Assembly (NCBI RefSeq): GCF_900182925.1
Contig: NZ_LT900024.1
Coordinates: forward strand, 2,542,001-2,606,000
DNA from: Psychrobacter sp. LV10R520-6
GTDB lineage: Bacteria > Pseudomonadota > Gammaproteobacteria > Pseudomonadales > Moraxellaceae
Length of the DNA stretch: 64,000 nucleotides
Direction: 5' to 3'
Shown: positions 56,486-59,408 of the stretch, one piece after another
How the letters are laid out: each line of letters opens with the position of its first letter
How positions within the stretch are numbered: the stretch's first letter is position 1
Position numbers and translations under genes: made by a program
The notes under the pieces: model-generated
The model's input: only the letters and a program-made list of their open reading frames with translations
What the model was told of the DNA's origin: nothing
Database searches by the model: none

Positions 56486-57856
56486 ATGAGTTTTAGAGTT
56501 GCCATTTTAGGCGCTGGCCCGAGCGGCTTGGCCCAATTACGTGCTTTTGAAGCAGCCCGCGACGCCGGTGCTGATATTCCCGAGATCGTGTGCTACGAAA
56601 AGCAGAGCGACTTGGGCGGCATGTGGAACTACACGTGGCGCACAGGCCTAGATGCCTACGGCGAACCTGTCCACGGCAGTATGTATCGTTATTTATGGTC
56701 AAACGGCCCCAAGGAATGCTTGGAGTTTGCGGATTATAGCTTCGAAGAACACTTCGGTCGTCCTATCCCGTCCTACCCTCCGCGCGCCGTGTTACGCGAT
56801 TACATTATGGGACGCGTCGCCAAGAGTAATATGCGCGAGCACATCCGTTTTAATACCGCGGTGCATTGGGTTGATCATGACGAAGCCACCAATAAGTTCT
56901 CTGTCACGGTTCGAGATCTCAAAAAAGACGAGATGAGCACCGAAGAATTCGATCATGTTATCGTCGCCACTGGGCACTTTTCGACCCCCAATACGCCTTA
57001 TTTTGAAGGTCTTGAACAGTTTCCCGGTCGCGTATTGCACGCCCATGATTTCCGCGACGCTTGTGAGTTCACGGGCAAGGATTTGCTGCTGATTGGCAGT
57101 AGCTATTCGGCGGAAGATATTGGCACCCAGTGCCACAAATACGGCGCCAAATCGGTCACCTTCAGTTATCGATCCGGCCCTATGGGTTTTGATTGGCCGG
57201 AGTCCTTCAGCGAAGTACCCTTACTCACAGAAGTTATCGGCAAGACGGCCCACTTCAAAGACGGCACCAGCAAAGACGTCGACGCGATCATCCTGTGCAC
57301 TGGATATCAGCATTATTTCCCGTTCTTACCCAACGAACTGACGCTGACGACACACAACCGCATGTACCCAGAAAATCTGTACAAGGGTATCGTTTCCTTG
57401 GCTAATCCGAAGCTGATATTCCTTGGCATGCAGGATCAGTACTACACCTTTAATATGTTCGACGCACAGGCCTGGTATGCCCGTGATGTCATGCTTGGCC
57501 GCATTACATTACCCGCAAACGAAGTGATGGCGGCTGATAGCCGTGAATGGGTCGCTCGCGAACTGAAGCTCTTAGACGCCACTGATGAGATCGACTTTCA
57601 GGCGGCTTACATACTCGATTTGATTGAGCCTACCGACTACCCTGATTTTGATGTGACCCGCGTCGCCGAAATTTTCAAAGAGTGGGAGCACGACAAGGAA
57701 GCAGACATCTTGGGCTATCGTAACAAGAGCTATCGCTCAACACTGACCGGCACCCTGGCGCCTGTGCACCATACGCGCTGGATGGATGCGATGGATGATT
57801 CTCTGGAAACCTTCCTCGAGCAAGAACAACCCGAGCCAGCAAAGGAGTCTGTATGA
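56486..57856 (+). CDS. tmm: Flavin-containing monooxygenase, probable trimethylamine monooxygenase (Tmm)
   Basis: FAD/NADPH class B enzyme expected to oxidise trimethylamine to TMAO. The FAD motif GAGPSG is at residues 9-14, the FMO fingerprint [11 protein letters not shown] at 179-189, and the NADPH Rossmann motif [10 protein letters not shown] follows near 206. Long stretches match the Methylocella/marine bacterial Tmm sequence as I remember it: [46 protein letters not shown], and [20 protein letters not shown]. Length 456, as Tmm. CAGGAG precedes the ATG. GC is above the genome background. Overlaps the transporter gene by 4 bp. Other FMO substrates (indole, DMS) are possible. Confidence 0.9.
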
Positions 57857-58950
57857 GTCAGTCTAGTACGAATCCAACTCTGATCGAGGCGCGGTCGCGT
57901 TTCACCGCCAGTAGTATACGTTGGGGCTTTATGTGGGCCTTGTGGGCCGCCGTGCTCTGGGGCGCCTGGTATGTGCCAGGATCCGCAGTCTGGTTTGAAG
58001 CACCCTATGTTAACTTGAGTTTCGATACCAATGCCCAGTTCTTGTTGGCAGCAGCCGTGCTAACCACCTTCAACGCTATTGCTGTGTTGTTCTTTTTGTT
58101 TGTCTGGAATGGGGTTTTGGGTAAATTAGGCGAATACGTCCGCACTATTAAACAGATGCGTCATATATCCAAGTGGTTCTTTATCGGTGCAATATTTGGC
58201 GGCCCAATGGCCATCTTTGGCTCGTATCTGGCGATAGGCTATATCGGTGGGGCCTTCGCGGCCATTTCAGCGCTGATGTATCCCATTATCGGCGCTACCT
58301 TGGCCAGATACTGGTATCAGGAAAAGATTACTCAGCGCGCAGCGGTGGGTATTTTCATTATTCTGGCCGGTGGTGTGACGGTATATGCACCCGGTATTAT
58401 CGCTGAAATCAACGGCACCGGCGACGCAGGCTGGCTTGGCTATCTTGGCGGCGCAATGGCGGCGATTGGCTGGGGTGTAGAGGGCGCAATCGCGGGCCGC
58501 GGGCTAGATGTGGCTGATCCGGATGTGGGTATTACGGTGAGATTCTCAGCCGAAGTCCTTTATTGGGTTCTGCTAATTTTGCCAGCGATCTACTTTTTTA
58601 CCGATCAACCGGTCGTGGAATTGGTTATGGCTACCTTCAACTGGGCGGCCATCGGCTGGCTGACGCTGGCGGGGGTAACCTTTGCCTTCTGCTATGTCTC
58701 TTGGTACAAGTCATTCCCCTTGATAGGCGTTGGGCGAGGACAAGCGATTGCTGCATTATACGGGCTTTTTGCGGTTATTTTCCTCGCCGCGTTCACTCTC
58801 AAATTTCCTGAGTGGAACTTCCTCGCAGGTTTGGCTCTTTTTGTCTTCGGTGGGTTTGTCATGTTCACGGAAAGTAACGAAGTGCTCGAGGTCGTCCGTG
58901 CTGTATCGACCGACACTAAAACGGCGACTGACACTACGGACAAATCGTAA
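57853..58950 (+). CDS. DMT-superfamily transporter linked to the Tmm-like enzyme
   Basis: The 365 residues have about ten membrane spans in two repeats ([40 protein letters not shown], and [20 protein letters not shown] in the second half), with a hydrophilic Thr/Asp-rich tail. It is larger than EamA exporters and most like the glucose/ribose-type or related DMT members. The ATGA overlap with the monooxygenase shows translational coupling. Uptake of trimethylamine or export of TMAO is a reasonable inference, not demonstrated. Confidence 0.85.
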
Positions 58951-58965
58951 TCATTGGAGCAACCC

Positions 58966-59259
58966 ATGAATAAACTACATATGAAAGGCCGCATTCTACA
59001 GCTAATCGATGATCGCCAGCATGTCGGCATCTGGGATTGGCAAATTAGCGATGCGGTGATGCTTGAATACGGCCTTAGCGGTGCCTATTGGCGCGGTAAT
59101 ACCCGGGTCACACTGACGGATTTGTTTTCCAGCGGCATCATCGAGAGTGTTGAAGAGCAGCTCGATGACCAAGCGTATTTTGGCGCAGGCCGGGTGTCGT
59201 TTAAGTTCAGACTTACCGATTTCGGCCGCCAACGTATGCGCGATACCGCAATGGCCTGA
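58966..59259 (+). CDS. Small winged-helix-like protein in the Tmm-like cluster
   Basis: About 97 residues from ATG 58966 (GGAG 6 nt upstream; an earlier in-frame start at 58954 adds four). The sequence MKGRILQLIDDRQHVGIWDW, IMLEYGLSGAYW-type helix, and the tail VSFKFRLTDFGRQRMRDTAM match a compact wHTH with a beta wing, as in small transcription regulators. It is 15 bp downstream of the transporter gene. It might regulate the cluster; the exact family is not recognised. Confidence 0.75.
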   Translation: MNKLHMKGRILQLIDDRQHVGIWDWQISDAVMLEYGLSGAYWRGNTRVTLTDLFSSGIIESVEEQLDDQAYFGAGRVSFKFRLTDFGRQRMRDTAMA

Positions 59260-59297
59260 TAGCCGGTGCCATTTTCTACTTTAACTAAGGATTTATT

Positions 59298-59408
59298 ATG
59301 TCTGATTTCTGGGGTTTTCCGGGGGCTGATCTGCTCGCCGTCGCCGTCATTATTGTGCTCTGTAGCTTTGTCTTGTACCAGGCTCGCACCTTTGTAACCA
59401 AGCTTTAA
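59298..59408 (+). CDS. 36-residue single-span membrane protein
   Basis: The ATG at 59298 is preceded by AAGGA (9-10 nt upstream). The ORF encodes a short polar N-terminus (MSDFWGFPGAD), one span (LLAVAVIIVLCSFVLYQA) and a basic end (RTFVTKL). It lies 38 bp after the winged-helix gene, on the same strand, in matching GC-richer DNA. Its size, ribosome-binding site and clear topology suggest a real small subunit or regulator of the cluster. Not recognised. Confidence 0.65.
   Translation: MSDFWGFPGADLLAVAVIIVLCSFVLYQARTFVTKL

Follow-up and report, generated by a model that had tools for sequence, protein, structure and literature searches.

A conserved leader RNA and a putative three-part transporter in an apparently acquired trimethylamine oxidation operon of Psychrobacter

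Trimethylamine (TMA) and its N-oxide TMAO are methylated amines that abound in the sea. A compact gene cluster for the oxidation of TMA in the genome of Psychrobacter sp. LV10R520-6 raises the question of how its genes belong together and what controls them. The window analyzed here is a 64,000-nucleotide stretch of contig NZ_LT900024.1 (positions 2,542,001 to 2,606,000), and all coordinates refer to it. The initial annotation had described four tightly spaced genes on the same strand, and all four ORFs were confirmed on the + strand. They are tmm, encoding a trimethylamine monooxygenase of 456 amino acids (56486..57856); a DMT/EamA transporter gene of 365 codons (57853..58950), whose start at 57853 and the end of tmm at 57856 form the ATGA overlap already proposed; a gene for a 97-amino-acid protein read as a winged helix (58966..59259), for which the ATG at 58966 was used here and the ORF list gives a TTG at 58954; and a gene for a 36-amino-acid micro-protein (59298..59408) with the motif MSxFWG[FY]..A..LA...AR.FV and one hydrophobic stretch recognized by eye. 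All four ORFs are intact. The smallest behaves as a real gene, since the pairwise single-base codon differences among 22 loci were synonymous in 3016 cases and non-synonymous in 480. Among the loci compared, the nearest DNA to the operon is that of Neptunomonas antarctica, with 85.6% identity over 3261 aligned positions (56186 to 59409).

The close match of the enzyme to bacterial Tmm was upheld. It scores 820 bits against the curated family NF058570 (cut-off 675 bits) over residues 4-445 of 456, and its nearest solved relatives are the bacterial Tmm/FMO structures PDB 6hns, 8b2d, 2xve and 6kbw. By family score the enzyme is a true Tmm, which would oxidise TMA to TMAO. No TMAO demethylase was found among the five insert ORFs scanned, and the accessible part of a published survey reports no tdm genes in the Psychrobacter genomes available at the time (PMC6514802). 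The host probably has no TMAO demethylase; TMAO most likely accumulates in it as a compatible solute, a step that rests on that survey. The cluster may have osmolyte and detoxification roles.

The cluster looks acquired because a search of 35 other sampled genomes of the genus for the transporter gave no more than one weak match (E 2e-6). The GC-richer DNA reported for it was evident in 1-kb bins, with 50-53% GC across 56001-59000 against 37-48% in the adjoining bins (51001-56000 and 59001-64000); a few other bins of the window likewise reach 50-51%. IS30-type ends were found on both sides, as described before. To the left lies an IS30-type remnant (55109..55890) with inverted ends at 55109-55159 and 55837-55890 and a redoxin-like ORF on the - strand between them (55208-55798). 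The right border is an IS30-family element on the + strand (about 59694..60776) whose transposase is split by a stop into two ORFs, the larger matching NF033563 with 268 bits (cut-off 80) and the smaller reaching 18.9 bits, below the cut-off. Next to this copy is a C-terminal fragment of PdxH on the - strand (59542..59658; PF10590, E 2e-16), in agreement with the truncated genes noted earlier. An IS30-bounded insert of ~5.6 kb is absent at the same place in three related genomes. One of them (G028) has both flanking genes, and its left gene stops 87 bp short of a weak match (E 7e-4) to window position 60832; 273 bp separate it from a strong match to position 61065, where the window has 5.7-6.0 kb. 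In another (G010) the two flanking genes likewise lie close together, and in the third (G003) most of the left flanking gene is missing. The 5.6-6 kb missing in the relatives correspond to the span from one outer IS30 end to the other, about 55112-60776. The island therefore resembles a compound transposon, with ends on both sides and an insert missing in relatives, and its acquisition, as first proposed, is supported. The operon DNA had no match in phages and the leader DNA, treated below, had none in plasmids. The host genome carries a second tmm elsewhere, which the first reading had missed; its gene order is common to a second genome of the genus, and neither a leader of the kind described below nor a DMT transporter adjoins it.

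The possibility that the four genes never co-occur outside the window was set aside because other Gammaproteobacteria carry the set as well. Genome contigs scanned for the transporter yielded 49 loci (52-92% identical), in 18 of which tmm lies directly upstream on the same strand; it is divergent in two more and was not present within the examined stretch of the other 29. The winged-helix gene follows the transporter in 48 loci and is itself succeeded by the micro-protein (E up to 0.005) in 47. One locus (L063) ends at the contig end and another (L079) has neither the winged-helix gene nor the micro-protein. All four genes were also present in 16 of 16 regions from the genome set, nine of which were already among the transporter loci. 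Spacings, counted in 44 loci after dropping those with no start found or a missing match, ranged from -8 to +43 nt between transporter and winged helix and from -4 to +60 nt between winged helix and micro-protein. Of the compact four-gene unit envisaged at the outset, the co-occurrence thus stands, but the constant unit comprises the transporter, the winged helix and the micro-protein, whose order is kept in 47 of the 49 loci, and tmm does not belong to it.

Other partners replace tmm elsewhere, as judged from one representative per cluster of neighbouring genes. Fifteen Methylophilaceae-type loci have a flavoenzyme neighbour with NCBIfam matches below the cut-off, which we take to be TMA dehydrogenase, and 15 have a TMAO permease (NF053774, 847 against 690 bits). 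A betaine-aldehyde-dehydrogenase-like gene (613 bits, below the cut-off of 669) is found in all seven Ralstonia-type loci and a choline dehydrogenase in six of them (TIGR01810, 869 against 732 bits). All four Bacillus-type loci encode an acyl-CoA-dehydrogenase-like protein, three an FMN reductase and three cupins, while on a plasmid of Paracoccus aminovorans the transporter lies near ETF, Hdr-like and aminomethyltransferase genes. With the exception of the Bacillus set, these partners point to methylated amines as the probable common theme.

The transporter itself scores 28.7 bits against PF00892 (EamA), barely above the cut-off of 28.2, and its only PDB match is the choline transporter LicB (7b0k, profile E 3e-10). 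A search for the BCCT family of TmaT returned only EamA. These matches suggest a DMT/EamA permease distantly related to LicB; a Methanohalobium plasmid protein is 44% identical to the window transporter. A protein database search gave 614 homologues, and fusions were looked for in the best 120; 26 of these, all those longer than 440 residues, have a winged-helix domain of the 97-amino-acid type fused to the transporter C-terminus. The genomic surroundings searched for these fused proteins turned up only plasmid loci with unfused genes. Together with the constant gene order, this fusion suggests a physical association of the winged helix with the permease, and the 97-amino-acid protein is better read as part of the transporter, probably as a cytosolic partner. 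The name "winged helix" comes from a reading of its sequence, and the protein had no significant PDB match. The micro-protein matched no Pfam or NCBIfam family, and most of 53 copies from Proteobacteria and Bacillus share its FWG[FY] motif at the N-terminal end and its AR-[FY] motif at the C-terminal end. Judging from fusion and gene order, the DMT permease, the winged-helix domain and the membrane micro-protein appear to form a three-part transporter.

Upstream of tmm we found a conserved non-coding leader, at about 56172-56485, that had escaped the initial annotation. In 14 tmm loci the DNA similarity continues beyond the tmm start and ends, on the upstream side, between 56167 and 56268. The mean pairwise identity of the leader in these loci is 70%, compared with 61% at the third codon positions of tmm, 21% in the stretch just upstream of the leader and 17% past the end of the operon. 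The conserved block starts with the element TGnTAnnnT (56172..56180, + strand), which we take to be an extended -10 promoter; all 30 leaders compared carry it no more than 60 nt upstream of the RNA core, and in 25 it sits at -28/-29, a count made without a shuffled control. The structured leader RNA is placed at 56187..56485 on the + strand, with a 5' end estimated from the -10 element and a core at 56201-56368.

RNAalifold gave 48 pairs for the 14 leaders, 13 of them with two-sided changes. In shuffle statistics that ignore relatedness among leaders, on MAFFT alignments that were not fitted to the structure, 41 pairs over the 14 leaders had 95.1% of cells paired and two-sided changes in 10 pairs against 3.8 in shuffles (0 of 500); 37 pairs over 30 leaders had 91.9% and two-sided changes in 16 against 8.1 (0 of 500); 39 distinct strong leaders had 92.2% and 19 of 37 pairs against 9.1 (0 of 500); and 16 of the 30 leaders, left outside structure building, nine found through the transporter and seven through the covariance model itself, had 89.4% and 14 pairs against 7.5 (0 of 500). 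By the same statistics, the number of further pair types was not significant for the first 14 leaders (197 of 500 shuffles), and was reached in 2 of 500 for the 30 leaders and for the 16 held-out ones and in 0 of 500 for the 39. When the structure was slid along the alignment, at most 48.3% of cells were paired. G-U cells (134) exceeded A-C cells (33) on the transcribed strand, as is expected if the + strand is transcribed. The folding z of the window leader is -2.3, and all but one of 26 full leaders fold more stably than their own eight shuffles do on average. As the covariation shows, the leader, once transcribed, would fold into conserved helices. No model of Rfam 15 matched it; a single match to sR17, on the opposite strand, was at chance level. 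A coding function of the leader was rejected, because no single frame stays open in over 9 of the 30 leaders and their lengths take all three residues modulo 3. No expression platform was identified, because occlusion of the Shine-Dalgarno sequence is no greater than in shuffled leaders (mean unpaired probability of 0.22 against 0.17 in the shuffles).

A covariance model, R1 (168 positions, 37 pairs), was trained on the window leader and 13 of the loci L034-L047; as a training sequence, the window leader scores 147.7 bits. Scanned over 62 loci, R1 matched all 14 of L034-L047, seven further tmm operons (138-164 bits) and L052 (89 bits). It did not match two Psychrobacter-type tmm loci (L121, L122) or L051, where all four genes are present, and showed no match beyond chance where the transporter sits with other enzymes (Ralstonia, Bacillus and Methylophilaceae types; Betaproteobacteria). 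Matches at L061 (15.8 bits), L060 (9.9) and L130 (12.8) were taken as chance, and the leaders of L048-L050 (two Vreelandella, one Marinobacter; 19-24 bits) were left out of the pair counts. In a wider survey of samples that overlap, two of them centred on genomes chosen because they already had R1 matches, R1 proved rare in the class, with a match in 1 of 229 genomes, and was found in 5 of 194 genomes of the order, 5 of 48 of the family of G131, 11 of 151 of the family of G054 and 2 of 10 of the family of G133; in samples of more than 40 genomes the stricter filters lose weak matches, such as the tmm leader of G054 (23.6 bits).

The survey gave 24 distinct matches, and all 24 lie before tmm, the DMT transporter gene or tmoX. 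Ten precede tmm, with or without the transporter (G000, G133, G161, G773, G812, G813, G816, G819, G820, G824), one precedes the transporter without tmm (G1112, with the same sequence as L052), twelve precede tmoX (G054, G131, G305, G787, G806, G812, G816, G819, G820, G824, G1145, G1146) and one precedes a tmm fragment followed by tmoX (G739). Five genomes carry two leader copies, one at the tmm operon and one at tmoX. In G813, tmoX starts just after the micro-protein gene, directly behind the tmm operon. The tmoX genes share 86-94% identity with the G054 gene, whose product matches PDB 4xz6 (E 3.5e-104), an entry titled glycine betaine/proline-binding protein that is presumably Ruegeria TmoX; in NCBIfam the G054 product had only weak choline/betaine matches. 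In all three loci that are long enough (L128, L129, L151), tmoW and tmoV follow tmoX. From the RNA core to the tmoX start codon the distance is 82 to about 390 nt, and conservation of the 3' third of the leader is clear before tmm and weaker before tmoX. Leaders of different operons could share ancestry through duplication. Because other genomes have this RNA in front of genes of the TMAO importer, the leader marks a TMA/TMAO regulon. A conserved leader whose structure covaries, placed before several functionally related operons, has some of the features looked for in a riboswitch, and the leader RNA is possibly one.

In our judgment the leader is probably a TMA/TMAO-responsive cis-regulatory RNA that governs a mobile operon for TMA uptake and oxidation, as well as TMAO import, with a three-part transporter. 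Transcription would start at the extended -10-type promoter, and the folded leader of ~300 nt would adjust expression to TMA or TMAO. The three-part DMT transporter would then import the trimethylammonium ion, Tmm, whose family assignment is clear, would convert TMA to TMAO, and TMAO would build up as a compatible solute. We advance more tentatively the narrower proposal that the leader is a riboswitch of a new class, responsive to TMA or TMAO, through which TMA uptake, its oxidation to TMAO and TMAO import are coordinated, coupled to the three-part DMT transporter. A test of the riboswitch would be direct, since the genes behind the leader narrow the candidate ligands to a few.

The regulatory reading has two competitors at the level of the leader. 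It might be a structured RNA that senses no metabolite, being bound by a protein or responding to salt, temperature or general stress over osmolyte genes. The genes under the leader do belong to an osmolyte pathway, the leader is long with no masking of the Shine-Dalgarno sequence above that of shuffles, and the proX motif before a betaine transporter, as far as the accessible part of its description goes, is another orphan of this kind (PMC8632094). A general osmolyte signal would nevertheless sit poorly with the narrow association of the survey matches with TMA/TMAO genes, or with G820, where choline and betaine-aldehyde dehydrogenase genes lie between two leaders without a listed leader of their own; we regard this alternative as somewhat unlikely. 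Far less credible is that the conserved block is a protein-binding promoter or operator with an incidental RNA fold. Regulons are also defined by transcription factors, and the block does begin at a promoter-like element, yet the conservation extends about 300 nt downstream of that element, two-sided compensatory changes are present in held-out leaders as well, and the G-U bias falls on the transcribed strand.

The proteins and the island can also be read differently. The initial annotation took the 97-amino-acid protein for a transcription regulator, and its small, HTH-like size together with weak Pfam matches among 16 family members (GntR in two, best E 0.065; PadR in one; MarR in one) would suit a free regulator of the operon. 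The window member, however, belongs to no Pfam family, the best E among the 16 members is 0.02 with no match to a DNA-binding family, the domain forms the C-terminus of the transporter in the 26 fused homologues among the best 120, and its place between transporter and micro-protein is kept in unrelated operons. The regulator was therefore dropped as quite improbable in favour of the transporter partner. Many DMT members are exporters, and the ATGA overlap with tmm suits export of the product, so that the transporter might expel TMAO or toxic amines rather than take up TMA; we find this doubtful, because its relatives adjoin TMA-dehydrogenase-like, choline and betaine-type catabolic genes and its sole solved relative is the choline transporter LicB. 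Similarly unlikely, in our view, is that the island is a neutral passenger, redundant beside a native tmm. This would agree with the second tmm in a gene order common to another genome of the genus and with the absence of the DMT gene, one weak match aside, from the 35 other genomes sampled, but the four ORFs are intact, the leader scores 147.7 bits and the other tmm has no such leader or transporter beside it. On the favoured reading, of an RNA-controlled operon with an importing transporter, the mobile cluster should turn fishy-smelling TMA into a protective solute.

The Tmm enzyme is ordinary: like other members of NF058570 it is full-length and above the curated cut-off, and its gene differs in sharing its operon with a DMT transporter gene and in being preceded by an RNA leader. 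What appears new here, as not described in the literature searched, is the leader RNA and the permease with a fused or adjacent winged helix and a micro-protein. That search was mostly of titles and the first parts of abstracts, with subscription papers largely outside it; within it we found no description of the leader RNA or the three-part transporter, no RNA sensor for TMA or TMAO, and no paper combining trimethylamine monooxygenase, DMT and tmm. The proX motif (PMC8632094), a structured leader before a betaine transporter, and the opuB motif (PMC11109978), whose ligand is linked to shikimate and aromatic amino acids, are both riboswitch candidates and likewise structured leaders before betaine/choline-type transporter genes, according to the accessible parts of both publications; they occur in other taxa with other partner genes, a distinction drawn from their descriptions and not from their sequences, and identity of our leader with the proX motif is unlikely. 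The TMAO ABC importer TmoXWV shares the leader RNA in other genomes and is not among the ORFs of the window insert. TmaT of Myroides profundi, a Na+/TMA symporter with a solved structure that imports TMA, as stated in the accessible part of its description (PMC11708041), would have TMA import in common with the window transporter and differs in superfamily (BCCT against DMT). Closer are LicB and MttP of the DMT superfamily, which are likewise EamA-type permeases linked to methylated amines. MttP is described, in the portions of the sources available, as a putative TMA permease of methanogens whose gene lies close to those for TMA methyltransferases; MttP and LicB are also named there as the top database matches of a Eubacterium limosum EamA protein. 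DMT permeases are usually regarded as single-protein carriers. The window family differs from LicB, and from MttP as compared by description only, in its adjacent or fused winged-helix domain and its 36-amino-acid partner, which, if truly part of the transporter, would add accessory parts to DMT permeases.

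On its left side, the insert carries a redoxin-like gene between two inverted IS30-type ends (55109-55890), with AhpC-TSA/Redoxin matches that fall under the cut-off. This gene resembles the passenger of an IS30-derived cassette. On the right side, a C-terminal fragment of a pyridoxamine phosphate oxidase gene (PF10590; 59542-59658, minus strand) adjoins an IS30 copy.

The host genome contains a second tmm (L121:6531-7916, corresponding to C1:351545-352873), around which the gene order is common to L122, a locus from another genome of the genus. Neither the leader RNA nor a transporter of the window type was found in this gene order. 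Just upstream of the second tmm lie two ORFs (L121:4452-6005) that resemble an IS200/IS605-type element. On a Methanohalobium plasmid, a DMT protein (L083:7971-9056) is 44% identical to the transporter of the window, and no winged-helix or micro-protein gene is annotated beside its gene.

In Marinomonas, the transporter is placed directly 3' of the leader (L052:5670-6003 and 6001-7565) and a short vestige of a tmm-like start is still present, an arrangement that looks as though tmm had been deleted. Downstream of the leader in genome G739 come first a truncated tmm and next tmoX (L140:1757-2224 and 2260-3162), possibly the fusion point of tmm-type and tmoX-type operons. In G813 (L110:3-742), tmoX starts about 125 nt past the micro-protein gene, which places the TMAO importer genes next to the tmm operon in that genome. 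Finally, choline dehydrogenase and betaine-aldehyde dehydrogenase genes are located between the two leader copies of G820 (L151:4477-13748), which suggests a larger methylated-amine island.
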